From contig JABSSW010000020.1 of assembly GCA_018902385.1 (NCBI GenBank), positions 627,546 through 691,545 of the forward strand: 64,000 nt of DNA, in the 5' to 3' direction. Position numbers and translations under genes: made by a program. This stretch comes from Physcia stellaris (Eukaryota > Ascomycota > Lecanoromycetes > Caliciales > Physciaceae). Position 1 is the first letter of the stretch. Every line of letters begins with the position of its first letter. Shown here one piece after another: positions 16,868-52,387 of this stretch. Below the pieces are notes generated by a model. That model was not told where the DNA came from. It did not search any database and saw nothing but the letters and a program-made list of their open reading frames with translations.

Positions 16868-17452
16868 TCACGAAGACCGAGCGAGTTGATCCGAGATATA
16901 GAGCTGCTTCACCGGGCTCTCTCGCATGCCTTGGACACACACGACAAGCAGACAGCTGATGAGGCTGAACCGGGAGTCTTCAGGGCTGTTTGACTTTGAA
17001 AACGGGCTTCCGGGGGAGTATTGTGCGCTCTCGGGTACGAAGCTGGGATTTGACGAAACCGTTGGAAGGTTTGCGTGTGGAAGCCATGGTACGTTTGGTG
17101 CGAAAAATGATTCCGGTGGCAGACTTGATGGTAGGTATCTCAGGTCGTGGGGAATTTGACCTGATACTGGGGTCCATACCGTCCGTGGGGAATCATCTGA
17201 GCTCAATGGTGAGTGAACCGAGCTATCTGGCGTGAAAGCTGACGGTGGCTGCATACTTGATGGTATACAGATCGGGCCTTCTGGCATACCAGCTGGTCGG
17301 ACCTGTGTGCTCCCTGGTAGACTCTCCGAAGTATCTGGCATGAAAGCCGACGGGGCGGCAGACGTTGAGCCGCAGCTTGAATCTGCGGCCCCGTCCACAA
17401 TTCGTTGCGTGAAGAGAAAAAAGAAAGAAAGAAAACATCGAGCGACGCCCAT
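16868..17452 (-). CDS. Doubtful Ser/Pro-rich repeat ORF
   Basis: A 194-codon open frame, not recognised. It starts with a hydrophobic stretch (FLSFFFLF) and then repeats a P-S-x-F-x-P-[DE]-[ST] motif at about 36-residue spacing (PSAFMPDTSES, PSAFTPDSSVH, PESFFAPN, PSFVPESAQ). The periodicity matches a 108-bp DNA repeat. It could be the remnant of a cell-wall-type repeat protein, or simply a frame kept open by the repeat. Confidence 0.25.
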   Translation of the reverse strand: MGVARCFLSFFFLFTQRIVDGAADSSCGSTSAAPSAFMPDTSESLPGSTQVRPAGMPEGPICIPSSMQPPSAFTPDSSVHSPLSSDDSPRTVWTPVSGQIPHDLRYLPSSLPPESFFAPNVPWLPHANLPTVSSNPSFVPESAQYSPGSPFSKSNSPEDSRFSLISCLLVVCVQGMRESPVKQLYISDQLARSS

Positions 17453-17720
17453 TTGAGCAGTGTTCTTGTCATGCTCTTCCCCCTCTTATAGATCATTACG
17501 GACGACAGGCGGACAGCCGATGAGGCTGAACCGGGGCAGTGGACGTTGAGCCGCAGCTTGAATCTGCGGCCGGTCCAAAACTCGTTGCGTGAAGAGAGAA
17601 AAAAGAGAGAGAAAACATCGAGCGACACTCATTCAAGCATTTTGGTTGTCATGCTCTTGACCTTAGTACAGATCAATATGAACGAGGCGGACAGCCGATG
17701 AGGCTGAACCCCGGGGGCAG
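17220..17720. repeat. Local repeats of 108 bp and about 180 bp
   Basis: TATCTGGC[GA]TGAAAGC[TC]GACG occurs at about 17223 and 17331, an offset of 108 bp. A longer unit recurs at about 180 bp: GACGTTGAGCCGCAGCTTGA at 17361 and 17542, each followed by a G/A-rich run and CATCGAGCGAC. The junction block ACAGCCGATGAGGCTGAACC occurs at about 17513 and 17691, with a relative near 16950. So there are two full and parts of further units. Confidence 0.75.
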
Positions 17721-30646: not shown

Positions 30647-32690
30647 CCTGTTGTTGATACCCCAAACTGTTCATATTACGATGGTGGGGAGGGGGGGGGG
30701 AGAGGCATTGTGCAAAATGGGCGCTGGATATACGGCGAAGATGATATGGATACTTGTACTCATTTGCTCTTTTGTTTTTGCATAATACCAGAGATGTCAT
30801 TTATTAGCGAGCGAGCGATGAGATATGGGGGTGGGTTTAGTCTGTTGCTTGAGAGTATGACTATGTAGGTGGGGGAGAAATTGCTTGTTGCTATCTTGCT
30901 ATTTAAGTTGCTTAATGAATAGGTCTAGCAGCCGGGCTCCCCTGTGGTAAGTCTGCTCTCTGTCTGCTGTTCTGTTCTGGAAGGGCATGTGATTATCGTT
31001 GTCTTCATCCCCATGATCGCTCGTATCGATTCTCTTATACATTATGCTACCTACTTCGTCTGAATCTGTAGCCCCCCCCAACAAAAGCATCCAAGCTTGA
31101 GGTCTGGGGCTTCTCAAAGCGTGTCTGTTTCAAGAACCTCCGAACACGTCTACTACTTCTGTGCTGTGAGAAAAGCTTCAATAGAAAATCTGATGCCATG
31201 TCTCCAATGTTGAGGAAAAGCAGCTTTTGGAAGGTATGCGTCCATCAGCAGCGTCGAGGCGGCCGAAAACCCGTCTCTGTTTTCTTAAGGTGACTATGCA
31301 TAATCGAAACGCTGTGGTTTTACTGTGGAAGCAGTTTCCTTTGAGTCTGGGTAATGATATCTCAAGACCCATAATGGAGAGTGGATGTTTCGAAAGGCGA
31401 CCCGACGGATAACCAAGCAGCCAACTCTGAAGCTACGGCTCGAGGCTCGACACCTTTAGTGGAAGTGCGGATCGGGGGCGGGAAAAGGCATACTGGGATT
31501 GGGCTTTAATCATGCGCACTACTTGCTTGCATTGGAATAGGTGAACTCGATTTGGCATTCGCTTCTGTCTGTGGTAAGGGGAAATGTGGAGTTCGCCGTA
31601 AGCTGAAAAACAAAAGTAGGGGAGGGTTTGTTGAGCAGGACTGAACGGCATCATCACTTTCTCCTGCCACTAATCCTAATCCACCTCCTTCTTCAATCAC
31701 CACAGCCAGACATCCCAGGATCTAGATATCAGACATCGAAACCCTCCCTCAAGCGAGATCGTTGAGGGATTTCGCTCCCACAGTTTGAACTGTTGGCGTA
31801 TTTGATTGGTTGCGGGGTGTGGCAGGTCCTGTCGCCGCCCATAGTTTGGAGGGGGGAAAGGGTTTGAGGGAGACTGTTTGAGCGGGTATTTTAGTTCCTG
31901 GCTGGAATTTTTATTGGGGAGGCGTTGGAGTTCGTTTTGGGATAGGAGAAGGAGGGCTGGAGTTGTGTCGATGGTGAGGAAGTTGCTTGTGAGAAGTGTA
32001 GATTTTGGTATAGAGAGAGATAAGAGCTTCTCTATATGATATAAGAAAGATAGCGCTGACTGCAATACAGTGCGGAGCCATCTTTGTATGAATTAGTCTG
32101 CAAATTATTCTTTCCAGAGTACAGTATGAACAGCGAGCAACATAGAATTTCATATGAAACAGGCATCGCAAGATATATCAGCGAAGACTCCTCGGAAACA
32201 AGTACGAAATCTCACAGCCCAGTAATGGACGTCATTACGGCTTGGATGGGACCAGTAAAACCGCAGAGACTTTTATATCTAAACCGCTCTCCATCCGCCT
32301 TTGGGATCGTGTCGATGGTAGACACAGATTTGGTCTGGGTCTCTGATGGGTCGAAAATGGTTATTTCGAATGGGATCTGGCAGCAGCGCAAACGAGGATG
32401 GAACGAGATGCAAGCTCCAATATAAAAAAAAAGCATCGAGGATAACCTCATGGAGCCATGGCGCCTCCAGCTCGACTCCAACATAACATATATTGCAACG
32501 CTTGAGGGTACAGTAGGAGCAGTATTGAAAACAGTTAGTAGATACAAATGTATTTCCTGAGGGTCAGATTCTTTGTGGGACATGAATATTTCGATCTGTG
32601 GATGTGTGCGATAGAACACAACCTATAAAAAAAAGTACATCGTTTCCTCTTCAAAAAACTTACTACCTCATTAGGTTAGATCAATCTTGG
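30647..32690. other. Intergenic region between pds5 and the AT-rich island
   Basis: Normal composition until about 32.69 kb, where it turns sharply AT-rich. It contains a G run at 30688-30701. Short frames at 31697-32065 (-) and 32084-32425 (+) show no recognised domain. No gene called. Confidence 0.55.
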
Positions 32691-33975
32691 CGATAAACAT
32701 CAAAACTTTTGTGCAGTTATTGCACACTTTGCACACCAACCAAATATTTCATATGATTTTTAGTTAGTTACCTGAAATTGTAGAGCTCATTGAGCGGAAT
32801 CCAAAGCTGTAACAATCATTAGATTTGAGTGTGTGCGAAATGAGTTACCAAGACGTGAAGATTTGACCGCATACAAATTGATGAGTTCAGAATTCAATAA
32901 TTGAAAACATCAACACGTCAAAACATCAATTTTTTATATCAATTCAATTATTTGCATATTTCAACAAATCACGAATTCACGTCAATTTAAATTTTTTATC
33001 ACGACGTATTCGCGTAATGCAGCAAATCGTCATGCGAAAAAACAAAAAAAAAAAAAAAACATCAACGTCAAACATTTAACATCAAATCTGTTTTTGTTTC
33101 TGTTTTTGTTTTTATTTTCGTTTCTGTTTCTATTTTGCATCGATCGAAATAAACGCTTTTTACGAATATCATTCGACGACTGTTACGTTTCAAATATCAA
33201 TGAAATTTCGAAAATTTTATTACACGATCAACGATCGAAATGAAATGATATTGAATAAACAAAAATTTGAAATATATTCGATCATATAATCAATTATCAT
33301 TCAAAATTCATTGATTGAAACACGTTTCATGTTTGATGTTGCATTCGATATTTCGAAAATAAATAAACATACGCGTTTTCAAATGAAATCACAACAAAAA
33401 CTGTTACAAAAAAATCAAAAAATTTGAAAAAATCAAATTTTTCAATATTTTTGACAATTGAAACGATTTGAAATCATAAAAATCAATGAAATTTTTTTCG
33501 AATTTCGAATATCGTTTAACGCGTTCTTTAAATGTTTTGTTGAAAAATCATTGTCGTTTTCAAATTTGAATAAAACGTTTTGTATGAAATGAATACGCTC
33601 ATTGCAAATGAAAAAAACATTTTTTTTTTTTTTATCGCTGTTCGAATCAACGATGAGAAAAAAATTCGTTTGCATATGAAAAAAAATAATCAAACATAAC
33701 AATCGTTTTTTTTTTAAATCGTTAACGAAATACGTTTGCAATGCAATGCAAAAAAAAAAATGAAAATTTGATTTTTCACACAATATTTCAATTTTCGAAA
33801 AAATTCAATTTGCAAAAAATATCAAACGAATCAAAAAAACGAAAGAAAAAAAATGCGAAAACAACAAAAATAAAAATAAAAAACATTCAATTTGATCAAA
33901 CGAATCGAATGATTTTGATGAATCGAACGATATATATATGATAAACGATTCGATCGATTTTGATATATGTTTTGA

Positions 33976-34169
33976 TGTTATGCGTAAAGTGTGAATTCAT
34001 TGATTTAGAAATTATGAACGACAAAATGTCAATTTATGTACAGTAATTGCGAATCAATTGCTTGATCATCATTCATTTAATATAAAACGACGACAGAATT
34101 TTTGTCAAATGTTTTGCAAAAATATTCGATTTAATTTCAAATCATTCAATTTGATTTTGTGTCATAACA
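33976..34169 (-). repeat. Element A 3' LTR
   Basis: 194-bp repeat pairing with 50921-51114; ends TGTTATG..CATAACA; outer flank TTTGA. Confidence 0.93.
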
Positions 34170-34388
34170 ATTTGTCAATCAAAAAAAAAAATCAATGTTT
34201 TCATTAAATTTCATGTTTCATTATCATGCGTAATCATGTTATATATCAATTTTTTTTTTCGTTTTTCGTTTGTCGTTGCGATCATCAAAATTTTGCGAAT
34301 GATTGAATTCGTATTGTTCAATGAAATTTTGAAAATTCTGTAATTCGAAAATGAATCGTCATTCGTCATATTTCGACTCATAATCGAT

Positions 34389-34580
34389 TCATTTGACTAA
34401 ATATTGAATTACGAAAATTTTGTAATATTTTTTGATACGTTTGTCGATTAACTTTTCGATTTCATAAAATTTGTACTGATTCGTATCGTTTTCGATTTCA
34501 ATGAAGTCAAAATAATGAAAACGCGAACGATTGTAAAAATCAATTTCGACAAATGTTGATTCGAACTGTGCAATAAACAC
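34389..34580 (-). pseudogene. Element A: chromodomain remnant
   Basis: The frame reads YEIEKLIDKRIKKY followed by IQYLVK, the start of a chromodomain like those at the C-terminus of chromovirus Pol, which are thought to steer integration to heterochromatin. Position next to the 3' LTR fits. Confidence 0.75.
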
Positions 34581-34829
34581 AACGAAATGAATTCGTCATG
34601 TTGATGACAATTTCAATCGATACGTTAAACGTTCGACGCGTTCAAAAATTCGAAATGATTCGCAACGTTGTTGAAATAATTTCGAATTTGATTTGTCAAA
34701 CAGCTTGTAATTTTTGTTGAATTGTAAATAAATTTTTTCATTTTGTTTTAATCGAATAAAAATATGACGTGAATTATAATATATTTTGATTTTGACAATT
34801 GCAAAATTCGTGACATCAACAATTTTTCG

Positions 34830-35783
34830 TTAATATTTCATGCGTTGAATTGACAAATTTTGTACATTTGTTGTGTTAAATTCGATTAAATTTGATATCG
34901 CGTTTTTGATTTTGAATTCGTATATAATTTCATTGAATGATAAATTTATAACGATGTTAAACGTGTTGTTTAGCTGTATTTGAATTGCAAAAAAAATTAA
35001 AATGTAATCGATGTTCGAAAATTCGATGACGAAATATTTGATAACAATTTCAACAATTTGATTGATTCGTTTTGACGAGTCGTTCGTTTGCGAATGATAT
35101 GTCATTGAAATTAACAATTTCGTGTTTAATTTGATGAAAAACATTTGTCAAAAATTCGACATGAATTTTGAATCACGATCGAAAATTATAATTTCAAACA
35201 TTTTTCAATCGACGATTAATAATTTGTTCAATAATACGTTGATTCATTTTTTCGTTTCATAAATGTTTTTGTCGAAAATCAATAAAATTCGACGAAAATG
35301 TTTGCATGTTGCGAACATGACAATGTTCATTTCGTCGAACATAATTAAAATGAAATCAATAACAATGATATGAAACGAACGCGAAACGAATGTAATAAAC
35401 ATGAATTTTTCGTACGATCGATGACGTTTGATTTGTGTCAATTGACAAATAAAACAATGTTCGATGTATTTTTTAATTTTTCGCGAAAATCGAAATATGT
35501 ATAACGTATTGAAAATTTTGTCATAACATCGATGAATTTCTGAATGTTGATTCGTATCGTGAATTAAACGAAATATTTCGCGTTTTACAACAACAAATAT
35601 ACACGATCGACGCGTGTCAATGTTAACATGATATATAATGTCATTCGTATTCAACGCGAAATTGATTTTTGTTTTGAATTTTCTTGATATAAATTTCGTA
35701 TCGTCATTTTTTTGTTCATTGACGTTTCGTTTCGTTACGTTGTTTTCGAACGACGATGAAATTTGAAAATTTCGAATCGACAA
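34830..35783 (-). pseudogene. Element A: integrase remnant
   Basis: The upstream part has the His/Cys zinc-binding region (HDTNQHSEIHRCYDK, then HCFICQLTQIKRHRSY). The downstream part resembles the catalytic core, with a MTYHSQTNDSSKRINQ segment. Gypsy-type integrase; degraded. Confidence 0.85.
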
Positions 35784-35999
35784 TTTTTTTTTTTTTTTGC
35801 ATTCGAATCGTCAACGATTTTAACATTTCGATCATGTTTCGTCATGTTTTTTTTTTGATATTCGTTTTTGATTTTTTTCTTTAAATTTTTCGACATGACA
35901 ATAAAAATGTCTTGAAAAACGTAACAGTCGAAATTATTCGAAAAATCGATTATTTCGTCATGATATGTGTTCAAATCAAATTTATTTTTTGAATTTTTG

Positions 36000-36540
36000 T
36001 CGATTTGTTTATTTTCAAACGTTAATTTTGATAACGCATTCGAAACAACATGATTTTTTTTGATTTATATTTCATTTTCAATTTAAATTGTGACAAATAA
36101 ATTGAAACACGAACAAAACAAAAATTGAATTTATCGATGTTGTTCGAATTCATCGTGATTTGTTTAACGATGAAAATATTGACGACATGATTCGTGAACA
36201 TAACAATAATATTCTTGATTGTTTTTATCATATGTCGAATTTTTTGACAATTCATATTAAATCACACATTTCGAATTCGATGAATCAATATTTGATTTCG
36301 ATTTCGTTCAACATTCGATTTAAAAATAAAATGAATTCGATATCGTTACGTTTGAATTTGTCTGAATTATTGTTTGTTTTGAAATGATAAATCATCGCGT
36401 CGAATTCGCGTCGTTTAAACGCGTCGATGTCGATGTACAATTTTCGATCGAAATTGAAATGTATCAAAAATGAAATTTTGTTAAAAATTTTTTGCAATAA
36501 TCGATATGATTTTAATTTTTCAATTGAAAAATTGTTCATT
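36000..36540 (-). pseudogene. Element A: RNase H region remnant
   Basis: Between reverse transcriptase and integrase; short frames resemble the tether/RNase H part of Gypsy Pol (for example DRKLYIDIDAFKRREFDAMIY). Degraded. Confidence 0.6.
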
Positions 36541-36599
36541 ACGATTTTTTGCGAATAAATTTTGCGAATGATGTTTTTGTTGAAAAATGATTGACGTAA

Positions 36600-37358
36600 A
36601 AATAAAATTTTGCGACGTTGTAACGCGTTCGTTTTTTGAACATAAAACGCGACGAATTCTCGTAATCATTTTGTTAAATTTAAATAAATTTTCAAATTTT
36701 TCAAAATATAAGAAAAATTCAATTTGATTATTGTTTTCAATTTATCGATTGCGATAATGAAATCAAAAACGTCAATTTTTTGATCAAGAAACGCGATCGT
36801 AAAATAATCAAAAAATGACTTTTTCGACGACAAATTAATTTCATAAATATTCAATCGTTCGAATATCGAATGTAAATGAATCATATGTTTTTCAAAAATA
36901 TTGAAGAAAACGACAATGTCGTTTACGTAAACACGAACAAATTCGCGAAAATTTCGAAAAATGAAATCGATTCGTCGTTGTACGTATGATGATGAATTTT
37001 TGAAATTCATCACGACGACGTTAAATTGTTTTTGTTTTTATGTGAAACGACGATAAATTTATGTTTGTTTGCAAACTTTATCAATCATTGATGAAAAAAT
37101 TCGCAACGTTAAAAACGAATATGAATTTGCATTCGACGACAACTGAAATAATGTTTGATTGAAAAAACATAAAATAAAAATCGATTAAAATGATTTTGTT
37201 TAATTCGCGTATATTTACGACGATTCGATTTTTGCGTTTTGAATCATTTGATTCAAATATTGTTTTTCATATCGCGAAAACAAAATAATCATGCAAAATG
37301 AATTGACTGATATATTTCATGCGATCTTTGCATGTAACTTGTCAAAAATTTCGTTTAT
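36600..37358 (-). pseudogene. Element A: reverse transcriptase remnant
   Basis: SSYVQRRIDFIFRNFREFVR, then VYVNDIVVF at the position of the YVDDIVVF catalytic box, and HMIHLHSIFERL, all matching fungal Gypsy reverse transcriptase. Element B interrupts Pol just upstream. Confidence 0.88.
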
Positions 37359-37544
37359 TGTTAAACAGACATGAACAATGACTGCATGAATTGCGTGTAA
37401 TTTCTAAATACAAACAAATCGAAGATTTTGATGTGTGCGATGTCAAAACACTAAACTCAATAGAGACGCATTAATTCTTTTTTCGTCAAATTATATCAAC
37501 TGACTTTTGCGCATTTATCATTGCGAAGATTGTATTTTTCAACA
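37359..37544. repeat. Element B left LTR
   Basis: 186 bp, TGTTAAACA..TTCAACA; pairs with 40303-40492. Confidence 0.88.
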
Positions 37545-38458
37545 TTTTTTCACAGCATTCGTTTGTGTCTTTTGTTTAAAACAACTATTTTGATCAATCT
37601 GAAATTTTCGTGCGAGTTTTTTCAACGATGCAAATTTTGATGTCTGAAACTTTTTCAAAACGATGAATTTTGAAATTTTTTCAACGATGCGTTGCTTGAA
37701 GTTTTCGAGCAAATTTTCTCATTGCGATAAATTCATGATTTATTGAAACGAATGACTCTCATTGTTGCAAATCAATTGGAACTCTCTCAGCGATGCATTG
37801 TCTGAAGCTTTCGAGCAAACTTTTTCAACTCAATAGATGTTAGAGCCGAATCACACATCGATGCGAAGTATGCAGAAACGAACGAAACGAAATTCGATGA
37901 TCTATTGACTTCAAATATGACGTAAGATCGAATTGTAAAACGTGCGATCGAATGACTGAAAACGTTTTGCGTTTTTTCATGAAATGATGCATCGATGTGA
38001 CAACTAATATTTAGATTTGACTAGAAAACACATCGTGAAACAAGTATTTTTCGTCTGAATATTGTCGTTGAAACGAAAATGAAAACGCAACACATTGACG
38101 ATTCGTTTTGTGATTCATTGATTTCACAAATATTTCAAATTTTTCATTTCACATTGCGTTTTCGTTGATCGAATTTCTATGTGATTTGATTGTAAAAATT
38201 CAAAAATGTGTCAACGAAATGAAAAAAATAAAAATAATTGAAAAATCGATAAAAAAAATAATGATTCAATGCGCGACAAATTTTGCAAACATACATCGAT
38301 GCAAAGAGTGCGAATTCGAATTTTTCGATTTTGACTAAGATTTGTCAGAGAATCAGATCGATTAATATGCGAAAAAATTCGATATTTTCAGCATTATTCG
38401 TTCTTTTTGATCGAATTCTTGCTTTGCGAAATCGAGATGTAATTTGATTGCATAATAC

Positions 38459-38722
38459 GCTTTTTCGAAACGATATTATCTGACATTTTTGTTGTAACAG
38501 ACTCAATACGTTTTTTCGAAACGATATTGATTTGATTTTTACTCGTATCATTGATTGTATATTTCACGAAACTGTACATCATTGTAGCAAATTCACTAGA
38601 AATACATCGTTGTAACAAATTCACTAAAAATACGTCGTTGTAGCAAATTCATTGTTGTAATTGTATTGTCACGCATTTTGTTTTTTTTTCTGATTGTACA
38701 ATACGTTTTTTCGAAACTGTAT
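38459..38722. repeat. Short internal repeats in element B
   Basis: TTTTTCGAAACGATATT-like units recur at about 38460, 38513 and 38706, with TCGTTGTA[AG]CAAATTCA[CT]T units between about 38580 and 38660. Confidence 0.6.
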
Positions 38723-39956
38723 TGTCACGTTTGATCGTACTTTTTGCTTTTCTTCTTTTCGTATTTATCGTTCGATAACGAATCGCAAAATGTAAAAAAT
38801 AAATGAGTTATCGTGTTAAATCAAGACGAAACAACAACGAAAAAGAACAATCATTTTTTTACAAATCAATAAAACAACAACTTTTGATTTTTTCAAATCA
38901 ATGATTTTTTCAACGTAAAACGAAATAAACGATGACAGAATGAAAAAAATGAATAAACAACTAAAACAACAACATGCTAAACTTTTTCAAATCATGATGT
39001 TCTTTCTAAATGAATGATAAAACGAACGAAAAAAATTGAAACAACAAATAAACACGATTTAGAACTTTTTCAAAATAGTGACTTTTTTCGAGAAGAAATC
39101 AATAGTGAGAAATTCGAAAAACAAACAACTTTTGACTTTTTCAAATCAATACTTTTTCAAAACAGAAATTTTCATGAATATTTTATTGTTTTCGATTTTC
39201 GAAACGATCGATGCGAATCAATTGTTAAACAAATAAATGACGAAATGTTTTTGACAACGTTTGCAAATTGAAATTGAATGAAAAATTTTCGAAAATCAAA
39301 AAACGTGAATCGAAATCGAGAATTTGCGCGAAAAACTTTCGCGAACATGTGTAAATTTTGAAAATTTCGAATTCGATCGTTTTGCAAACAAATGAAATCG
39401 TCGCATTGAAATATGACGTAATGCGATTTTGTATAAAACGATCATTGTTTTCGAAATTGCGTTTATCAAAATTGCGTGAAAAACACGCGCGCAATTGATG
39501 TTGTTGTAAATTTATTGATTTCGACTTTTCAAAAAACATGCAATGTAAATCATTCTCGATGATTTAAAATTTCGAAATATGTGATAAAAAAACGAATCGA
39601 CAATGTCTGAATGCAAATTTCGATTTCTTGATTGAAATTCACTTTTTCTATTTCTTGTTATGTTTTTGTTTTTAATTTTTTTCTTGACGTGATGTTGAAC
39701 AAGATGTAAAATAGCGAAAATCGAAAAATGAATGAAATGTCACGTGAACGATCGATCAAATGTTTCGATCAATGACGATTGACGTGTCGATAAAATAATT
39801 AATTCGTATCGTACATAATTAATTGACGCATTGAAGTGATCATTTGAATAATCGTTTTCGTACATAATTAAATGATCGATTGTCGATAAATGTAAATAAA
39901 TTGAATTGACATTTTTCAATTTTTTTGTTTCAACGCAAAATCGTGTAATTTTTTTT

Positions 39957-40110
39957 TATTGTTTTAACGCGATCGATCGATGAGTTTTTTTCACAATCGT
40001 TTGCTCATTCGCAAAACTGATGATCGAATCTTTGTAAATTTTCTTTATTGTTTTAACGCGATCGAACGATGAATTTTTTTTCATTGTTTTAACGCGATCG
40101 AACGATGAGT
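39957..40110. repeat. Tandem-like repeats at the right end of element B
   Basis: ATTGTTTTAACGCGATCGA followed by [AT]CGATGA occurs three times, at about 39959, 40048 and 40085. Confidence 0.7.
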
Positions 40111-40302
40111 TTTTCTCATTGTCGTTGATTTTCGTAATTCGTATCGTGATCGAACGATGCGATTATGAATGCGAATTCGCGTACGAAAAAATTCAAATTT
40201 TTAAGAACACAACAATTCACGACTTGTCAAGTCGAATTGTTTTGTCAAAACAGTTGCAACATCATTGTCACGAACAGCATACGCTAATTCGAATTCATAA
40301 TT

Positions 40303-40492
40303 TGTTAAACAAACATGAACAATGACTGCATTTAATTGCGTGTAATTTTTAAATACAAACAAATCGAAAATTTTGATATGTGCGATGTCAAAACACTAAA
40401 CTCAATAGAAACGCATTAATTTTTTTTTTTTCGTCAAATTATATCAATTGATTTTTGCGCATTTATCATTGCGAAAATTGTATTTTTCAACA
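40303..40492. repeat. Element B right LTR
   Basis: 190 bp; pairs with 37359-37544. Differences are nearly all C/T or G/A. Confidence 0.88.
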
Positions 40493-41358
40493 TTTACAAG
40501 TTTTTTGTTTGCGAAATCAAGCGAATACATTTTTGTTGTTTGAATTTTGACGTCAAATTTCAATTCGATTGACATTTATTCATTTTTCGAAATTTTCATC
40601 GTAAATTCATTGTCGTTTCACAATTTTGAATAGTTCAACGCAACGTTTGCAAGTTTAGTTCGAGCGTTAACGTCATCGTAAACGATAATTTCAACAGACA
40701 ATATTTTTTTCGCACTAATATTAACATTTGACACGATAAAATTGTTAAAATTGTTTGCAGAATTGATTGAAAAATTGATCAAATTTGAAACGACGAAATT
40801 AATCGCGATCGCATCGTGCAAATTTTCATAGTTAATCGTCATAGTCGCGTCAACTGTCATGATCGAAACATCAAGTTTCAATGTTTGTTTGAATCAATTT
40901 TTAGAAACAAATTTATGAATATTAGCAACTAAATGAGCGTATTTCGAATTAACTAAATAACATTTTTTTTTTCGTATTTTTGTACGAGTTTCAAACGCGT
41001 ATTTTTGAAAATGTAAACATTTTCAGAATTGACGTTGTTCGTTTCAATCATTTCTGTATGTGCATCAATAATATGAAAAAATACGTTTTCATTTTGATTT
41101 AAACGTTCAATTCGCGAAAACGTGAATATAAAATCGCGTTCAGCAAATAAATTATTTTTTTCACGTAACTTGAAAGAAATCGTAAAAGTTGATTTAATTG
41201 ATATTTTAATAATTTCGTTGACACGAGTCACGCGTTTGATTTGTGAATTTGCATTGATGACATTGAATTGTATTTTAATGTTTTTGCAATTTTCGATGAT
41301 AACAATCTGTTTATTTACATTTATATTCATTCGTTTTGAATTCAATATATCATTGTCA
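40493..41358 (-). pseudogene. Element A: Pol N-terminal (protease-adjacent) remnant
   Basis: Piece of element A lying between inserts B and C. A frame at 40953-41345 resembles the segment between protease and reverse transcriptase in fungal Gypsy Pol (ENCKNIKIQFNV, IKRVTRVNEIIKI, ERDFIFTFSR). Degraded. Confidence 0.6.
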
Positions 41359-41619
41359 TTGAAATGTCATGCATTGATATGATACTAATACATAATTACA
41401 CGAAAATATCGAAATGAAAAGCAAATACATGAAAACTCGACAAGACATATGTAAAAGATTGATCATAAACGAAGTTCGATTCTGTCATTCGATGTGATAA
41501 AATAAAAATGTTAATTCTAATGACGATTCTGTCATTCGATGTGATAAGATAAAAATGTTAATTTTAATGATTGATCAGATGTTGATTTCAGATGTTGAAA
41601 TCGATGCACGTTCGTCACA
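41359..41619 (-). repeat. Element C left (3') LTR
   Basis: About 261 bp, GAAATGTCATGCATTGATA at one end and CGTCACA at the other; pairs with 47656-47916. Confidence 0.88.
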
Positions 41620-43630
41620 TTATTTCTCGTTTTCTTTCAACTTCGTTTCGAAACGATAATTTATTGCTTTTTTTTCTCATCGATCGACAAGATACGTGAT
41701 CTTGATGATCTGATTTCTAGAAATGTACAATTCATAACGAATGCGACAGTCGTCGAAGACGTACAGAAATCTGAAATGAAAACGACGAAAACGACGAAAA
41801 CGACGAAAAAGACATGCAAATCTTTCAGAAAACTTGCGTCTGAATGAAGATGTGAAAGAATTATTAAGACATGAAATATGCGAAAATATCGCGTCATTTC
41901 GTATGATGAAAAGACGTCTTTTCTGACAGATTTTTGAGCATGCATGCGAGATTCGTTAGTAAATAATACAAATACAGAGTAAAAAAAAAAAATGAAAACG
42001 TTTTCGAATTTCAATCCGAAATCTGATTGCGAAACATGAGTCGTGATACTTGCGAGTAAATGATATGATAAATCATTTGAAAATATCTGAAATTCAAAAA
42101 TCTTAAAGCAGATTGATCGAAACGAGAAGATTTTTCAATGCTTTGCATTTGATGTCGAATGCAAATTTATGCGAAATATTTGAAATCGAAATCATCGCAA
42201 CTGATAAAAAAACTGATTTGCAATCAATTCGCTGAAAATGCAAACGATAACGTAAATGATAAAATGTAATGAAAACATTAATGTAAACGTTGAATTTTTG
42301 CAACATCAAGTCGATTATACGATGAAATGAGCAATTTCGTCATGTTAATAAAATCAACGCAACAACGATTAACGCATCGATATTTGAACGCATGCGATAA
42401 TCGATGTGTACGATTCATTCAATAAAACATGTATGCAATAAATTTTCTGAAAAGTAAATAGTTTTTGCGAATCTCATAGATAGCTTCGTTGATCATTAGT
42501 AAACAATTAAGAATTTTGTTGAGAATTTTGTTGACTCATTTGTATGTAACATTCTGATTTCAGACAATTGTTTATTCATATATTTTGCATGACATTTATC
42601 TTTTCAGCGTTCAATAAAATCGAACGACAGTTTCTGAAAATGTTTTTGACACGATTCAATTCTTTATGCGTCGTAAGTTCTGATTGTAAACAACGTGAAA
42701 ACGATAGTATCGAAATAAAATCGCAAAAAAACAATAGAGTTCGTCATGAAAATAAACATCTAATGAATAAACGACGTCTATTGACTGATTGTAAACGATA
42801 CAGTTCATTGTTTAATCATTTCTCAAAGCAAATTCATTTTTTCATTTTTTCATCGATTGACGATTCGAAAAGTATCGTTGATTAAAACGTAAATAATTGA
42901 ATCGATCATTGCGAAAATTAAAATGATCGAAACAAATGCAACAAACGTGATCTGAAATCGAAAATGAAAAGAACGACGAAAACGTAAATCGTGATTTGAT
43001 GCAAAAAATGTTTGTCATTTTGTATGATTTGAAATGAACGATTTCTCAAATCGAGTAAAAACAAAAGAAAAACAATGCGAATGAATTTCGCGAACGTATG
43101 TTGTTGAAAATTTTTCGATTTTGAATTTTTCAGATTTTGACTAATCGATATTTTCTGATTGATTGCAGACATGAAATAAAAAATTATTCGTGATTGATGC
43201 AACAAGAAACGTGATTGACGAGATAAACGAATGTCGAAACGTTACGAAAAAGCAAATTTTTCTTGATGTTGACGTAAATCAAACGATTTAGATTTTTCAC
43301 GAAACATGCGACTGAAATCATCAATAGTGAAATAAGATTTGATCGAGCGAAATTGACGAATATCGAAACATTGCTGAGAAGAACGACGATTATAATGCTG
43401 TCGCAAATCAAATGATTTAAATTTTTCATCAAACATGCGATTCAAATCATTCATAATGAGATATGATTTTTGAAAATAAAATTTTTGATGTTTTCGAACG
43501 AAAATTCGAGAAAATGTAAACGAAAAAATAAACGAACATTTGAACGTTGCAATCTTCGTTCGTTTTGATGCAATTTCGAATGTCGCAAAAAGAAAACACG
43601 AACGCGTTGATGCGATGACTGATTCGAAAA

Positions 43631-45614
43631 TTATTGAAAATTAGAATTTTTGACTTTTTGATGTTGCAAAAAAATAAAAAATTTCAACGAAACAAACGAA
43701 ACAAATGAGCAAACGACTGTTGATTTCTTTGCGATTTTGCATGCAAATTCGAATGCGAAAATTCGAAAATCAAAATTTTTGACAAATTTTCGAACATGAT
43801 GTTGACGTATATGCTCGTGAAATTTGTTATTGAAATTGAAAATCTGATTGCAACGTCGACACGTTGTTGTTCTTTTCGTTGATTTTGATTTATGCGAAAC
43901 GAATGACGTTTTTTTGATTTCGCATACGAAATTGACTGCATTGATAAAAAAATGAAAATTGTTGACGAATTGATCAATAACTTTTTCAATTTTTGTTTGT
44001 CTTTGAGATTTTTGATCGATCAATTCGATTTGTTTTTGAATTTTCTGTTCTCGTTGATGTGCACAACGAATGAATTGTTGTTTTAATTTTTGATGTAATG
44101 TTTCATGACACGAAAAAGATTCGAGATAATGCTTTTTGATTGAAAAAACAACGATTCGACAAATAAAACAATTTTTCTTGAAAATTGAAAAAAACGAAAT
44201 AAGCGAAGCAAACGAGCATTGATTTGATTCATTCTCGATCAATTTCGATATAAATTCGAGTGCTCGTAGTTGAATTCGATGATCGACATTCTTTGTAAAA
44301 ACATTTGTTGAATTTTTCGCGATATCGCACGTTAAATTGATTGTATCGTTCGAAAAATAAAAGTTCTTGACGAATTTCAAAACTTCATGATTGCGAATAT
44401 GCTCGTATAATTTTTTGTTAAAGTTGAAATTTTGCTCGCAAAATTTGCAAATTGTTCGAATATTTGTGACTTTTTAATTTGATACGCTTTTCATGAATTT
44501 TGATGTTATCTTGAATGTTTCAATCGAAAAATTCGAACTTTTCGACGAAATGATTTCGAAAGTTATTTGATTTCGTGAAGTTCGTAAAACGAACGTTTCA
44601 ATGACTGTTAATTTCTTCTCGATTTCGCATATTGATTTGATTGTATCGATTGAAAAAAATGAACAAAATTTTGAAAATTTTTAAACAGAAATTTTTTGAA
44701 ATTTTGATTCGAACGTTTGAAAAAATGATGAACTCGACAAAATAATTGAACATTGAATTGATATGTTTTTCATCAATTCTGATAAAGTTTCTGATGTATT
44801 AAACGCGAGAAGCGAATTCATCGATGAAATGACTGTTTCGAAAATCAATGTTGATTCAAATATTTGCTTTGATGTTGCAATAGAAATTTGCAACTCTGTT
44901 CGCAATTTTGACGAATCAGAAAAACGTTGAATAAATGCATTTTTTTGTTGATTCTGATATGTAATCAAATGTAAAAGACGAGAGATATGAACTTTCTGAT
45001 GCAATGACAGTCTCGAAAATCATGACAGATACGAATTTTTGTCTTGATATTGCAATAGAAAGTTTTTGCGAAACAGATGAACATGCAATTATCGACATTT
45101 TTTTTGTTTCACATATCAAATTGATTGCATTGATCGAGAGATGAAAATCTTTGACGAATTTCGAAACTTCGTGAATGCGAATATGTTCGTACAATTTCTT
45201 GTTGAAATTGAAATTCTGTTTGCAAATTTGCAAATCACTCGAACGCATGTGAATTTTTAATTTGATATGTTTTTCATCGATTTTGATGCAGAATTGAATG
45301 CACGTAACTGAAAATTCGAGCATTTTGATGAAACAGATTGCAAAGATGTTTTCGTTTCTGATGTCAGATTTTTTTTTGATGTGACGAAAATCAATGATTC
45401 AACGAGCGTGATGAATGATTTTTTCGATTTCGCACGTTAAATTGATTGTATCGTTCGAGAGAAACGAACTGTTGACATGTTTTTTCGCATGCAGTTCGCG
45501 CACGTGTTCACGAAACTTTTTTTTGAAATTGAAATTTTTCTCGCATCGCATGCAGATTATTCTGAAACAATTAGCTAGTTTTGCAAACGAAACGTCGGCG
45601 AAATCGACTCGCAA
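43631..45614 (-). pseudogene. Element C: array of C2H2-like finger modules
   Basis: At least four related modules: CRRCNQIFNFNNKFHEHIRQ near 43.83 kb, one near 44.43 kb, ICKQNFNFNKKLYEHIR near 45.2 kb and CMRCEKNFNFKKKFREHVR near 45.53 kb. Most are followed by a similar linker (FVKNF..S.DTINLTCEI). The finger resembles the single one in the gag remnant of A (CQSKFYFNNKFHRHLR). Function unknown; degraded. Confidence 0.65.
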
Positions 45615-47655
45615 AATCTCAATTCATTCATTCAAGAATGCTGATTTCATGATGTTTTGTTTATCGTATCAAATATCGAACGTTTGATTTCATAAACATG
45701 TGAACAATAAGTGAAGCAGATTTGACTTTCGATATCGATGCTGACATTGCTGAAAATGTTGCAAAAATTTCGCGATCTCATTGAATCGTCGATTTTCGCA
45801 TGTGAATGTTGAATCGAAAATATCGATATTTTGAAACGTTGATGTTGACTTTGCAATTTTTCGATTTTCAAAGCTTTTGACTTAGTTCGTTTAGCATTTT
45901 TGACTGCGTTGACTTTAGTTTTTTTCGCAATTTTCAGAACATTTGATTTTTGTTGTTCTTGTTGTTTTTGTGAATCAGATGAAGTAAATACTGTTGAACT
46001 CTCGATGATTTCGCATGTGAGTTTCGATGCAGAAATTGAAAAAAAGACGAATTTTGTTGATTTGCAATTGAAAAAAAATGCATTCGTTAAAGTTATATCG
46101 AATTCATGCAGAAAGATGAAATTCGGCTGATTTTTGAATCAATCGAAAACAGAATTTCAAAGACAATCGATCAACAGAGCAAGCAAGTTGACTCTCGATG
46201 TTGATATTGAAATTGTTGAAATCGTTGTAAAATGTCTGTGATTTCGCAAAACACTTCAAATTCTGAATCATTTTGTGTGAGTTTCGGATCGAAAAGATCA
46301 AAAAATGAAAAAATGCAAGTTTGACAATTTCATTCGCTTTCGGATTTTTCGTTTTTGTTGTTTCGAAGTCATCGCGAATGCGAGAAAAAAAGACAATTTG
46401 TTAAAAAATTAAATAAATTCGCAAAACTGATTTTCCGAAATGTAAAATGATTCGAATACTGAATGCTGAGAAGAAATTCTGCAAAAGTGATTTGAATTTT
46501 CTGAATTGAAATGATATTGACTTTATCGCAAAAAATTCGAAAATCAGAACTAATTGCTAAACAAACAGATGTGATTTTGATATGTTCTCAAGCAATTCAA
46601 ATGATGCTGATATCGAATGCTGAAACAAAACGTTTTAAAAGATTTTTGATGTTTCGAATTAAATGATTTTCGATGCAAAATTTCTGAAAACTTGATATTG
46701 AATCTAACATCGAATCAGAAGACAAATGATGATTTGCTAAATAGATAAATAGAAAATCAAAAATTCTCGAATGAAAAAGTGATTGCAATAATAATCGTTG
46801 ATTGAGTGTTCGAAAGTTTTTTGACTCGAGATATTTTGCTTTTCTTGACGTGATATTCAGTTCGCTTCCGAAATTTTCTGATTGAAATATTAAAGCAATC
46901 GAGTAAATAGAAAAAAATGATTGAGTTGTCAATAAAGTAGATACGATTCTGAAAAATTCTCGAAAAAAATAGATGATTCGGATTCGATCGAAAAAACGAA
47001 AATTTTTTCGAAAATTTCTGATCGAATAACGAAATTTCTGATTCGATCGTTGTTTTGAAAAATTGATATTGAATTTATCGAAAATATTGAAAAATGAAAT
47101 GAATTGATGAAAATCAATAAATATGTTTTCGAATTGATTTTCGAGCGAAAAAAATGTTTCGAATATTGATGATCAAAAATCTGATTTCTGATTCTGTCAC
47201 ACGATGTGATGTTGATATGATGTTTTCTGAACTTGATGATTTAGACTTGATTTATTGATATGTAATGATGTCACAAGTGATTTCGAACGTCGTTTTCATG
47301 ATTTGTCGTTAAATGAATGCGTATCAACGTTCGAGAATATCAAACAATCGTCGTTTCGATCACAGTTTACAACTATCTCGTCGTTTCGCTGAGTATCGAA
47401 ATGATTTTTTCGTGAAAATTCACACTCGAAATCTTTGCTTTCTGAAAAGTGATTTGAATGAAGTAGAATTTCGTTGCTCTCATTCAAATCGTTTAGATTT
47501 TCGATTTCACGTGAACAAAATTACGTCGTTCTCGTTGCACGTCTAGAATTTAATTGATGACGTCTTAAATTTTCGCGTTGATTTGAAATCTTGTTTATTG
47601 AATAAGTTGTCGTATTTCGAGCAGCTTGAAAAAATTAAAATGATTTCGATATAAT

Positions 47656-47916
47656 GTGAAATGTCATGCATTGATATGATATTAATACATAATTACACGA
47701 AAATATCGAAATGAAAAACAAATACATGAAAATTCGACAAAACATATGTAAAAAATTTGATCATAAACGAAAGTCGATTCTGTCACTCGATGTGATAAGA
47801 TAAAAATGTTAATCTTAATGATTGATTTTGTCACTCGATGTGATAAAATAAAAGTGTTAATTTTAATGTTTGATCAAATGTTGATTTCAGATATTGAAAT
47901 CGATACGCTCGTCACA
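47656..47916 (-). repeat. Element C right (5') LTR
   Basis: Pairs with 41359-41619. Both copies contain two internal TC[AT]GTCA[CT]TCGATGTGAT-like units. Confidence 0.88.
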
Positions 47917-47921
47917 TGTCA

Positions 47922-49813
47922 AAAAAAATTTTTGTTTTCAATTTTTTCATTATGTAAATTTGTCGAATGAACGTGACGATCGCATTTTCGTCATTAATCG
48001 AAATTTCGAAAATTCGAAAAATTAATGAAATATGATTCGTCGTGATTACAACGACGTTTTCAATGTCGCGAATTTTGAGAAATTTCATAATTTGTCGCGC
48101 ATGAATTTGATAATCAAATATTTTTGCATCAAAAATTTACGATCGATTAAAAATGCATCGCATTCGATATCGACGCACATATCGATGAAAAATTGTTTTA
48201 TGTTTGTTTTCATCGTGACGTAACGTCACGAACGAAATTCGAAATTGAATCGTGTATCGATTTTGACATTTGACTGTATGATAAATGTTTGATAATTATA
48301 AACATTTTTCGTCGACGATGTGTCAAACTTAATCGAAACTGTTTGACACGAACGCAAATGTCGATGAAATTTGTTATTAAAATAAAATTTCGATTGACAA
48401 CGTTTGCGTGAATAAATTTTTGTTTGTTTGATTGAAATATTCAGAAAATATTCGAATGATTCATGAATCACATAATTTTCATTAGATTTCTGAGTTTCGA
48501 AATGCTTTTCGTCATGATATTCATCATTTATCATAAATATCGTTGACGCGTTTTCAATATTCATGTTGTAATCATTTTGATAATTTTTTTCATCGATTGA
48601 ATAATTGTTTTTTGTTTTTTTTTTCGCAAAATACGCTCGTCGATATGATGTTTTATTTTGATTAAACGTTTCATTTTGATTGAAATAAGTATTTTGTTTT
48701 GACGAAAACGAAAATGATGTTGAAAAATCAACAAAATAGTTATTCAAACGTAAAAATTGCGAATATTGAAATTGCGAATCGAACGTGTTTCGATTTTTTT
48801 GAATTTCGTTTTGTTGCGTTTGTTGAAATCGATATTGTTGATTTTCGTATGAACGTTTTTGCATATTTTGTGTCGATTGTTGTCGATTTGAATAATTTGA
48901 TTGATATGAACGCTGTTGAGAAATATAAACGTTATTTTGTTTTTCAAATTGATACGATATCGAATATTGAATTTGACGTGATTGCGAAAAAAATTCATTG
49001 AAATTTTCGTAATTTACACGTTCATTGATAGCAAAAAAAATATTATACGAATCGAATAATGTTGACAACATTGATAATTGAAAACGATAATTGAATTGAA
49101 AACGACGTTCGTTTTCGAAAAAATGATAAAATCGATATCGATTTTCGATGTTTCATCATATTTTTTTTTTATCATCGAATTGTTGAAAAAACTCATTCAT
49201 TGTAATTTTTTCTGTCGATTTAATCAAATCTCGTCGAAATTTCAATTTCAATTCATTGTAAATTAAATACAATTGCGAATAAATTGACATCATTGTCGAT
49301 TTAATATTTTTAATTACAATTTTCGCGAAATCGAATGATTCGCAATGTCGACGAACATTTTTTATCGTGTATTTTTTTTTCGTGATGATCGTCAACGTCG
49401 TTGACGACGATTTTTATAACGTTTTAACAACAAACGTTTTCATTTTTTTACGTCATTTTCGAATTTGATCAATTGTTTTTGATCATCGTTGATTATTTTT
49501 GTGTATCAACGTAACGCGTGATCACGCATGCAATTATAAAAATTTGTTCGAATCACGTCGACATCTTTGAACAACGTCATATTTTTGATTTTTTCAATGT
49601 AAAAATGAACATTTCGAAAATATGTATTTTTGTTCGAATGTTCGATCGAATTGTTTGTGATGACGTTCTTTTTTTCGTATCACGAATCAAAAAATTTTGT
49701 TTTTTAAACATTTCATTTGACGTCATCATCATTGTCAAAAAATTCGATTGAATCTGATAATTCGACGAGTTTTGAAATTTTGTTTGAATATCGTTTCGAA
49801 TATCTGTAATCAA
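47922..49813 (-). pseudogene. Element A: gag remnant with C2H2-like finger
   Basis: Gln/Asn/Ser/Tyr-rich region typical of fungal Gypsy Gag, followed by a C2H2-like segment (RKRCQSKFYFNNKFHRHLRS) seen in Gag-Pol of related fungal elements. Located next to the 5' LTR as expected. Degraded. Confidence 0.7.
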
Positions 49814-50920
49814 TGTTTGAAAAATTTGTCATTGTTGTTGCGTGAATTTCGTGTTTTGTCAATTGTTATTTTCGTTCGTCATATTTGAATTGAATGCGAA
49901 AATAAATTCGATATTTTTGTGTTTCGAGAAATAATATTTAGCGAAACTATGATGTTGTTTCGTCGTTGAAAAAACGACGTCGACGAAATGATTTGAAATT
50001 TACGACGTAAATTTTTCGAAAAATGAACGTAAAAAATATCAAAAAAATATTTGCAATCGTCGATTTTAAATCAAAAATGAATGACGTAATTCGATCATTA
50101 ATTCAATCGAAAAATGATTAATTGTTTCGATACGTTTCGATGACGATCACGAAAATTTTAAAATTTTTGCGAAAACGAGTTTTGTCGACGATTCATTTTG
50201 TTGAATAAACAGTGTTTGTCGAAATTGAATGATTAATAATTGACAACGATGTTGATTTAAAACAATTAATTACAATATTGTTCACAGTAATTTTTGCAAA
50301 TGTATTGACAAAATAAATTGAATCAATTGTATCGATGTAATCGAATAATTCAAACGCAATGCGAATGATTTGTGATGTGAAAACAATCAAAATGATTTAA
50401 ATGAAAATGATATGTCGTATTGAGATTTGAAATAAAATGATGATAAAAAAAAAAAAAAAAAAAATTGAAATTTTCAAGACTTGTTGAACAAATTATTTGT
50501 TGATGAAAAGACAAATGAAATCGTTAAATTGAATTGTTCGAATCAGACAAAAATTCGATGATAAATTAACATTCAAATGCGTCGTCATTGAACGATGACA
50601 ATGCGAATTTTCACGAAAAATCGAAATGTTCTGAATATTTGAATGAGAAATCAGTCGTCTTTGCTGAAAATTGTAAAAAATTGAAAAGATTTGATTGAAA
50701 TTTTTATTTTCAATTAAATATTTGTTGTTGATGATTGATTTCGATCGACACGTCGAATCGAACGAACAATAAAGTTTTCAATAACGACAGCGAAAAGAAT
50801 ATTGATGAACAAATGATTTGCGTACAAAATGCAAAATTGTTCGAAAATTGATACGTTAAAAAACAAAAAATGATGTCGTTTTGTTTACGTACAAATTATC
50901 GTTTGAATGATGTTATCAAT

Positions 50921-51114
50921 TGTTATGCGTAAAATGTGAATTCATTGATTTAGAAACTATGAGCGACAAAATGTCAATTTATGTACAGTAATTGCGAATC
51001 AATTGTTTGATCATCATTCATTTAATATAAAACGACGACAGAATCTTTGTCAAATGTTTTGCAAAAATATTCGATTTAATTTCAAATCATTCAATTTGAT
51101 CTTGTGTCATAACA
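50921..51114 (-). repeat. Element A 5' LTR
   Basis: Partner of 33976-34169. The outer flank at 51115-51119 is TTTGA, identical to the flank at 33971-33975. Confidence 0.93.
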
Positions 51115-51262
51115 TTTGACGACGACGAGAAAATGCAATGAAACGAATTGATCGAATTAAAATTGAAACAAACGAACACAAATAAAAACAAAAAAGAAAT
51201 TTTTATTCGAATATGTCATGATCGATATAATTTTCACGAAATTTTTTTCAAATCGAATCGAT

Positions 51263-51334
51263 TTTTATCAAATGTTTTATCAAATGTTTTATTCAATATT
51301 TTATCGAATGTTTTATCGAATGTTTCATCGAATG
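51263..51334. repeat. 12-bp minisatellite
   Basis: Six tandem units of TTTTATC[AG]AATG with small variation, just outside element A in AT-rich sequence. Confidence 0.85.
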
Positions 51335-52387
51335 TCTTCATGCGCGAATCATTTTCGCAAACATACATCGATGCAAAAATTGCAAATTCGAACTTTTGAA
51401 ATTTTAATAAGTCAAAAAATTTCGCTGAAAAAACAAACTCGATTTGTATGACATATTTTCGATATTTTCGTCGCAAATGATCAAATCAGTCAAAATTTTG
51501 AAATCAACATATGTACATAATATTCAGAATGATCAATATCAAAACAAATACATTCTGATATTCTATTGCGTTATATTCAATCGAAAATCATGATATGTTT
51601 CGAAAATATGATCAAATGATTGCAATTTTTGCAATTCAAACTTCATGTTTGACATTGAAACTTTTCAGTTATGAATTTCAGATTTGCGACACTCTTTTTC
51701 GATTTAGTTAGTTCAAAATTTATTTGACGATCAATCATCAAAAATGTAATTTGTTGTTGCAATTGATTTGCAATTTGCACATCAATCAACAATCAAATAT
51801 AATTTTCATTTATTTAATCAAAATTGTAAAGCAGAATGAGCGCATTTCAATGTTGCAAAAATAACAAAAATCGATTCATTATCGCAATAGTTTTGAAACT
51901 TGAAAAATCATGTTAAAAATGTGTTTGTAAAACAATTTCGCAACAACGTTTGCGAAACAACAATGTCATATTCATCATAATTCAATGCGCACTCGCTCGA
52001 TTTTCGATATTTTTGATTTTTTGAATAGTATTCATTTCGTGTTTCAAAACAAGTCTTCGAATGTATGATTTACTTACTGAATTAAAAAGCTATTAAGGTG
52101 CGAAATCGATGAGATCGCAAGGAATTCTGATTTCGATGCGGAAATTTCGTAATTTTATCAGATTTGACTCTAACCCTAAGAGTTCTCGACAAAGTTTTTT
52201 TTAAAAAAACTTCCGGGCCTACTTGTAATAGAGAACTTCATTGGTCAGATGCAGGCTACTCCTATGTGGAGCCCAGCTTGTTGAAAGCTAGGAGTGAATT
52301 AAAAGAATTGGCTGCGTATCGTAGGATGACTATCTCCTCTCACCCTTCGATTCGCTACATCTTCCACCTTGGCCAGTAGAAGCTCCC

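Follow-up and report, generated by a model that had tools for sequence, protein, structure and literature searches.

An AT-rich retroelement island of Physcia stellaris, probably destroyed by RIP directed at cytosine before a pyrimidine

A 64,000-nt stretch of contig JABSSW010000020.1 from Physcia stellaris (the window) raises the question of what process stripped CpC/GpG and CpT/ApG from an island at 32690-52160 with a GC of 0.283. Strand-symmetrised O/E values in the island are 0.03 for CC, 0.34 for CT, 1.31 for CA and 2.86 for CG, with TA at 0.40 against 1.00 for AT and with TpC enriched (GA 1.46), which bears out the sequence-only reading that CC/GG is near-absent, CT/AG scarce and TA rarer than AT. 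The flanks are ordinary (left CC 0.96 and CT 1.08; right CC 1.04 and CT 1.12). Both strands are alike, with 329 residual CpY and 315 residual RpG in the summed rows of 19 island windows. At the left edge (32601-32900) the CpY+RpG counts per 100 bp run 16, 14 and 12, between 23 in the preceding and 0 in the next 100 bp, a gradient that may reflect either mutation spilling into adjoining unique sequence or a fragment mutated only in part; at the right edge they recover over 52001-52200. The features in and around the island are as follows.

32601..32900, no strand: graded left edge of the island (CpY+RpG counts per 100 bp)
32690..52160, no strand: hypermutated AT-rich repeat island, stripped of CpC/GpG and CpT/ApG, with CpA and CpG retained (dinucleotide composition)
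33976..34197, plus strand: LTR-like repeat A, copy 1 (repeat pair alignment)
35244..35810, minus strand: remnant of retroelement coding sequence with an integrase H2C2 zinc-binding domain (PF17921, E 3.4e-9)
37358..37547, plus strand: repeat C, copy 1 (repeat pair alignment)
40302..40495, plus strand: repeat C, copy 2 (repeat pair alignment)
41360..41620, plus strand: LTR-like repeat B, copy 1 (repeat pair alignment)
43631..44473, minus strand: 280-aa open frame within mutated sequence, for which no Pfam family passed its cut-off
46597..47172, minus strand: 191-aa open frame within mutated sequence, without a Pfam match at E 0.1
47657..47917, plus strand: copy 2 of LTR-like repeat B, 6.3 kb away from the first (repeat pair alignment)
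48226..49152, minus strand: 308-aa open frame within mutated sequence, without a Pfam match at E 0.1
50921..51140, plus strand: copy 2 of LTR-like repeat A, 16.9 kb away from the first (repeat pair alignment)

The pattern is present on many contigs and, in the samples taken, is restricted to repeats. The genome sample comprised 272 windows of 1 kb (~0.27 of 44 Mb), including 136 low-GC windows, most commonly of the 0.25-0.30 GC class (77/136), and 130 with a GC of 0.44 or more. CpC O/E was at most 0.3 in 133 of the 136 low-GC windows and above it in 3, CpA fell below 0.95 in 2/136, and the mean CpG O/E of the three low-GC classes was 2.6-4.1, so that CpG is not depleted in repeats. The 130 windows of higher GC were normal (class means CC 0.95-1.01, CT 1.08-1.09), and the CpY deficit is thus absent from sampled gene-bearing DNA. 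Standard RIP indices flagged none of the 136 low-GC windows, as had been anticipated for a TpA/ApT-type index applied to the island.

Differences between the repeat copies of the island point to the same sites, although the earlier tally for pair A needs correction. Pair A, for which six differences, all CpT, had been claimed, differs by 10 transitions (7 CpT, 3 CpG) and 4 transversions. Pair B shows 18 transitions (16 CpT, 1 CpG, 1 CpA) and 2 transversions. Pair C shows 9 transitions (8 CpT, 1 CpA) and 1 transversion, in agreement with the claim that most of its differences conform. Pooled over the three pairs, CpT accounts for 31/37 transitions and CpC for none, presumably because CpC was already exhausted; the 16.9 kb between the copies of A presumably holds other, nested elements. 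A 351-bp query over copy 1 of A gave at least 42 genome matches (40/148 candidates scored) and repeat B at least 62 (40/330 scored), from each of which 20 pieces were retrieved, and 22 copies per family were aligned. With columns near gaps and C present in fewer than two copies left out, the mean T fractions in families A and B were 0.72 and 0.79 at CpT, 0.12 and 0.06 at CpA, and 0.22 and 0.06 at CpG, and variable columns were of the transition type in 68 vs 19 (A) and 47 vs 25 (B). Pairwise transitions in family A (n = 3838) comprised 1728 CpT, 1408 CpA and 622 CpG, CpA and CpG together exceeding CpT, and transversions were not rare (1026 in A; 1262 vs 2455 transitions in B), which shows that subfamilies that diverged earlier, or slow mutation at CpR, contribute as well. 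Two local duplications of ~200 and ~150 bp, which bear on the length threshold below which repeats escape RIP, have a GC of 0.55 and 0.53, with CpY transitions in 8/16 and 1/7.

The decisive test was provided by an rDNA unit that lies, wrecked, on a different contig and whose ancestral state is known through the conservation of rRNA. This unit is the sole 5.8S locus among the candidates scored (1 match; 39/2644 scored), and a conserved 28S 20-mer was absent. Only capital consensus letters were scored, omitting badly aligned rows, long-gap rows and divergent segments, and the strict tables also omit any C whose 3' neighbour is only weakly conserved. In the first set, changes affected 4/217 A, 5/112 T, 38/113 C and 69/171 G, i.e., 9/329 A/T positions vs 107/284 C/G positions. 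Two C sites that had become neither C nor T were kept out of the fractions, and C-to-T changes occurred at 48/50 CpC, 31/56 CpT, 1/42 CpA and 0/47 CpG (Fisher CpY vs CpR, p 9e-30). Similarly, the held-out 28S gave 51/55, 34/61, 2/46 and 2/41, respectively (p 2e-25). In sum, 99/105 CpC were changed, a loss of 93-96% at conserved rRNA sites where CpA (3/88) and CpG (2/88) are nearly intact; together with the CpG O/E of the low-GC classes, the last figure contradicts a MIP or CpG methylation-deamination process. The lax tables for the first and held-out sets give CpC 59/67 and 65/73, CpT 39/73 and 45/78, CpA 3/71 and 7/59, and CpG 4/71 and 3/57. The 3' base decides which C mutates: CCC changed in 10/10 and TCC in 18/18 first-set sites, vs 0/9 CCA, 0/11 CCG, 1/14 TCA and 0/12 TCG, and the held-out 28S gave 0/16 CCA and 1/14 CCG. 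A 5' effect sparing GpCpT, suggested by the first set (GCT 1/12 vs other NCT 30/44, p 2.6e-4), was rejected, as GCT changed in 9/13 held-out sites and bulk retention differed little (0.14 vs 0.09-0.12). The 5S genes are untouched, with 8-14 CpC retained in each of 8/8 copies.

These results support a RIP-like process that prefers CpT and CpC over CpA, as composition, rDNA and families agree; CpA is not the main target in the AT-rich stretches, the two families or the rDNA pseudogene as sampled. The proposed CpY preference holds overall and is refined in that CpC is hit far more severely than CpT and CpG is spared like CpA. The best reading is RIP with the order CpC > CpT >> CpA, CpG, and the island is probably made up of clustered retroelement remnants that RIP with this unusual specificity has destroyed. 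An excess of C:G to T:A change in repeats, its occurrence in many copies and on both strands, and the sparing of unique gene-bearing DNA are all as in RIP; the usual, not universal, preference for CpA is missing (3/88 CpA vs 99/105 CpC). On this reading the fungus detects which of its DNA is duplicated, and cytosine on either strand turns into thymine where the 3' neighbour is a pyrimidine, nearly completely at CpC, in about half to four-fifths of CpT and rarely at CpA and CpG. Since CpC becomes TpC and CpT becomes TpT, the mutated DNA has much TpC/GpA, TpT and relic CpG but little TpA.

The mutator may be a cytosine-5 methyltransferase of RID/Masc1 or DIM-2 type that acts before meiosis, either deaminating cytosine directly or methylating it ahead of deamination, and whose recognition of the 3' base has shifted from A to pyrimidine. 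A search for RID/Dim-2 type genes, proposed from the sequence alone, found three C5-methyltransferase genes in the genome, two RID/Masc1-like and one DIM-2-like. The candidate RID-like pair (on C5 and C6) shares 39% identity across 195 aa of its catalytic region, and its catalytic frames lack stops except in candidate introns; the genes are provisionally labelled RID-like from their motifs, namely EQT/EET in motif VI. Among solved structures they match M.HhaI, M.HaeIII and chains bearing the names cytosine-specific methyltransferase or DNMT1, with no structure named RID among them, and NCBIfam gave only C5-methylase models, all below cut-offs. The DIM-2-like gene carries DUF7893, and one Pre-SET match is also found in the genome. 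One of the two RID-like proteins appears to be the leading suspect, with DIM-2 second. It is conceivable, though somewhat short of an even chance, that a RID-type methyltransferase, possibly one paralogue, was re-tuned to a 3' pyrimidine and represents a third RIP specificity class beside CpA(/CpT) and CpG.

The CpY specificity could instead belong to a vegetative methylation pathway, in which DIM-2-type methylation at CpT/CpC in heterochromatic repeats is followed by slow deamination of 5-methylcytosine and there is no premeiotic RIP. This would explain the repeat restriction and the 3' rule, the genome has both a DIM-2-like gene and a Pre-SET match, and Neurospora DIM-2, which methylates all CpN contexts, prefers CpT according to the part of a 2026 review consulted (PMC13297926). 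However, such all-CpN activity should erode CpA and CpG, which are nearly untouched where 93-96% of CpC is gone, and two RID-like genes have been kept with catalytic frames free of stops outside candidate introns, so this alternative is unlikely. An APOBEC/AID-kind deaminase acting on retroelement cDNA or DNA is much less probable still. In its favour, the retroelements here carry C-to-T and G-to-A hypermutation, and APOBEC3G favours CC sites; however, APOBEC/AID enzymes read the 5' neighbour, and here a C after C mutates only before a pyrimidine (CCA 0/9 and CCG 0/11 vs CCC 10/10), both strands are alike, and rDNA, which is not reverse-transcribed, is affected, so that the 3' rule contradicts this candidate. 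The island alone would not distinguish mutation from the compositional bias of an AT-rich element family or from an assembly or base-calling artefact; both are highly improbable, because the rDNA unit, once normal rRNA sequence, bears the same pattern, repeat pairs differ mostly at CpY sites, and sampled gene DNA and 5S genes of the same assembly are normal. Dipyrimidine photodamage in unrepaired heterochromatin can be dismissed almost entirely: CC and CT are dipyrimidines, but UV targets TC and, within CC, the 3' base, and TpC is enriched here (GA O/E 1.46) with TCA (1/14) and TCG (0/12) spared.

Compared with known systems, RIP of this order shares with that of Neurospora crassa the C-to-T change in repeats, AT-rich islands, the escape of 5S genes (PMC5496416) and RID-like and DIM-2-like genes, but the N. 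crassa order is CpA > CpT > CpG > CpC in the part of that source consulted (PMC5496416), and TpA falls here where it rises there. CpT-rich RIP is already known. In the main text of PMC4352252 as consulted, a CpT signature is described in transposons of Magnaporthe oryzae, Botrytis cinerea and Sclerotinia sclerotiorum, which predominates in M. oryzae and in a single strain of Botrytis, and RID/Masc1-like genes occur in one or two copies; these are likenesses, whereas CpA is a co-target there, with the term CpC nowhere used, and here CpC is strongest and CpA spared. The CpG-directed or MIP-type systems of Microbotryum, Rhizoctonia and Tuber share C-to-T change by a non-CpA rule, but CpG, their named target in the parts consulted (PMC4352252, PMC4014442), is the best-preserved dinucleotide here. 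In Rhizoctonia AG8, CpC changes are the most closely spaced (214 bp vs 370 for CpG) although a CpG bias is named (PMC4014442, in part); unlike the present data, those figures are whole-genome heterozygous SNPs and not repeat-directed. In the lichen fungus Cladonia rangiformis, gene and TE compartments are likewise split by GC (~48% vs very low), but ripped DNA peaks at ~16% GC (here the commonest low-GC class is 0.25-0.30), and the section consulted gives no dinucleotide context (PMC12542154). CpC-first, CpA-sparing RIP was not found in the portions of the literature examined.

The specificity also alters the coding remnants. A single CpY step offers only one route to a stop, TGG to TGA, where a single CpA step yields TAA or TAG. 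Stops are present in 140/150 RVT_1 (reverse-transcriptase) matches, and of 286 such stops 250 are TGA, 33 TAA, which single CpY steps do not explain, and 3 TAG; in low-GC DNA the share of TGA among stop triplets is 0.53 (p 1e-34). Because Gln and Arg codons cannot become stops in a single CpY step, destroyed elements still contain long open frames: the island holds 7 frames of at least 150 aa, compared with 0 in 50 mononucleotide shuffles, and coding ancestry contributes too.

The outcome of the defence is thereby altered, as a single CpY step stops Trp codons only and spares Gln and Arg codons, and long frames surviving in destroyed elements may be annotated as genes. The Neurospora order is inverted, with CpC, least favoured there, hit nearly to completion, and this provides a natural contrast for locating the residues of RID/DIM-2-type enzymes that read the 3' base. 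A mutator that reduces TpA, leaves CpA in place and creates stops only as TGA from Trp codons would be scored as "no RIP" in index surveys, and some fungi listed as RIP-free may therefore have it. Since standard indices miss all 136 sampled low-GC windows, species of this kind may be under-represented in the distribution of RIP as recorded so far.

In the 43.97-Mb Physcia stellaris genome (147 contigs), GC content falls from ~0.50 to 0.28 between 32.7 and 52.2 kb of the window (C20:627546-691545), where CpC is nearly gone (strand-symmetrised dinucleotide ratio, O/E, 0.03) and CpT is scarce (0.34) against an ordinary dinucleotide composition in both flanks, bearing out the sequence-only reading that C before a pyrimidine (CpY) is depleted in this island. 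The O/E values of the other pairs are 1.31 (CpA), 2.86 (CpG), 1.46 (TpC/GpA), and 0.40 (TpA). Within the island lie three pairs of repeats together with remnants of retroelements, including an integrase zinc-binding domain, and 31 of the 37 transitions within the three pairs occur in the CpT context that the same reading had claimed for them. A second AT-rich stretch (28–32% GC per kb) lies 5–10 kb left of the window, in the first 5 kb of G000:C20:617546-627545 on the same contig.

The direction of change can be read from a hypermutated rDNA unit (C41:41000-50500, another contig of the assembly), for which the strongly conserved letters of Rfam rRNA models were taken as the ancestral state. 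C→T changes in a first set (48/50 CpC, 31/56 CpT, 1/42 CpA, 0/47 CpG) and in held-out 28S stretches (51/55, 34/61, 2/46, and 2/41, respectively) sum to 99/105 CpC, 65/117 CpT, 3/88 CpA, and 2/88 CpG, while conserved A and T had changed at 4/217 and 5/112 positions in the first set and at 5/184 and 4/113 in the held-out 28S. The 5' base matters little, as C was kept in CCA (0/9 changed) and CCG (0/11) and changed in TCC (18/18) and ACC (11/12) in the first set; an apparent protection of GCT in that set was absent from the held-out 28S. The sole 5.8S locus found in the assembly (one match; 39 of 2644 candidates scored) lies within this unit. Compared with the rRNA models, its 18S and 28S are interrupted by extra segments of ~50 to 420 bases that resemble rDNA introns. 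Such introns are frequent in lichen-forming fungi.

Among 22 aligned copies each of A and B, two LTR-like families with two copies apiece in the island, the mean T fraction is 0.72 at CpT, 0.12 at CpA, and 0.22 at CpG in A, and 0.79, 0.06, and 0.06 in B, so that CpA is not the main target in these repeats; CpC sites (0 in A, 1 in B) are too few for counting. Counting against this reading, CpA and CpG (CpR) supply 2030 of 3838 pairwise transitions in family A and transversions are frequent in both families (1026 in A, 1262 in B), which are read as a sign that subfamilies diverged earlier or that CpR sites mutate slowly. Beyond these families, composition was sampled in 272 windows of 1 kb from the 64-kb window, 20 stretches of ~10 kb, and one rDNA region, a sample biased toward contig ends (13 of the 20 stretches are contig starts), and GC was below 0.36 in 136 of them.

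Mean O/E by GC class of the sampled 1-kb windows
GC <0.25: CC 0.01, CT 0.09, CA 1.31, CG 4.08
GC 0.25–0.30: CC 0.03, CT 0.24, CA 1.25, CG 3.34
GC 0.30–0.36: CC 0.18, CT 0.49, CA 1.13, CG 2.62
GC ≥0.44 (n = 130; range of class means): CC 0.95–1.01, CT 1.08–1.09

Gene-bearing DNA, represented by the 130 windows of GC ≥0.44, thus has normal mean CC and CT, and exceptions among the 136 low-GC windows are few (CC above 0.3 in three, CA below 0.95 in two). The usual criteria for repeat-induced point mutation (RIP) flagged 0/136 low-GC windows and 1/130 of those with GC ≥0.44, the blindness of the standard index that had been predicted. One pentamer, CCCTA, resists CpC loss in the sampled low-GC windows (15 CCCTA, 0 CCTTA); its occurrences are probably telomeric repeats at contig ends.

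A single CpY step on sense codons can reach only one stop, TGA from TGG, whereas a CpA step yields TAA or TAG. Internal stops occur in 140 of 150 reverse-transcriptase (RVT_1) matches scored among 527 candidates genome-wide, and the stops within the 150 comprise 250 TGA, 33 TAA, and 3 TAG. The TGA excess stands because it is still significant (p 1e-34) against the TGA share of 0.53 among stop triplets in low-GC DNA at large; the 33 TAA have no explanation under single CpY steps. The remaining 10 matches are stop-free, and some frames are therefore unbroken at the RVT_1 domain; the island itself retains open frames of 188–308 aa.

Some repeated sequences are spared. At least eight 5S genes (47 of 1658 candidates scored) keep 8–14 CpC each; three copies are identical, but pairwise differences among the six full-length copies include 15 CpA, 10 CpC, and 5 CpG. 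Similarly, direct duplications of ~200 and ~150 bp at window positions 17351-17731 and 13895-14263 (83% and 89% identical) have normal GC (0.55 and 0.53). Both fit a length threshold, short of a full test.

Repeats are the targets, both strands are affected, C changes to T, and the 3' base sets the rule. This pattern probably reflects RIP with a 3' pyrimidine rule, in which the mutator would be a RID-type or DIM-2-type methyltransferase, an enzyme whose identity, timing, and chemistry we infer. A PF00145 profile search of the genome (four matches, four candidates) gave three genes, with GC of 0.49–0.51 at their loci, and candidates of both types that the sequence-only reading had suggested looking for were among them: one DIM-2-like candidate (1118-aa frame, DUF7893 present, BAH below cut-off) and two RID/Masc1-like candidates on contigs C5 and C6, 39% identical across 195 aa, whose frames run on past a plausible intron. 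These labels are presumptive, assigned from motifs and domain order independently of fungal reference sequences. One Pre-SET match was also found in the genome. Split genes, along with the RID-like and DIM-2-like candidates, point to a filamentous ascomycete. Vegetative methylation by DIM-2 followed by deamination would account for the restriction to repeats but leaves the intact CpA and CpG unexplained, and is an unlikely source of the pattern.

RID/Masc1-like genes, two of which occur in this genome, are also described for five species in a published study, with a copy number of one or two (PMC4352252). RIP specificities, as given in abstracts and passages of published work, follow the order CpA > CpT > CpG > CpC in Neurospora, and CpA and CpG, about equal, above CpT > CpC in T. 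reesei, one sign being lost in the source text (PMC5496416). CpT is targeted together with CpA in Magnaporthe, Botrytis, and Sclerotinia (PMC4352252) and in Anisogramma (PMC10998396), is high in data for Tad1 and for S. nodorum (PMC2621366), and predominates with ApG in alignments of RIP-capable fungi (PMC7882544). Monilinia shows CpA with double changes (PMC8959702), a CpA preference is common to RIP-like defences in a 1,239-species study (PMC12543289), and a CpG bias is named for Rhizoctonia AG8, yet CpC is its most closely spaced SNP class (PMC4014442). The titles, abstract openings, and passages surveyed, with few subscription journals among them, contained no CpC-first, CpA-sparing RIP. 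A prior description, for instance in a paper on this species' own genome, is possible, and this specificity may represent a new form of RIP, itself a known process.
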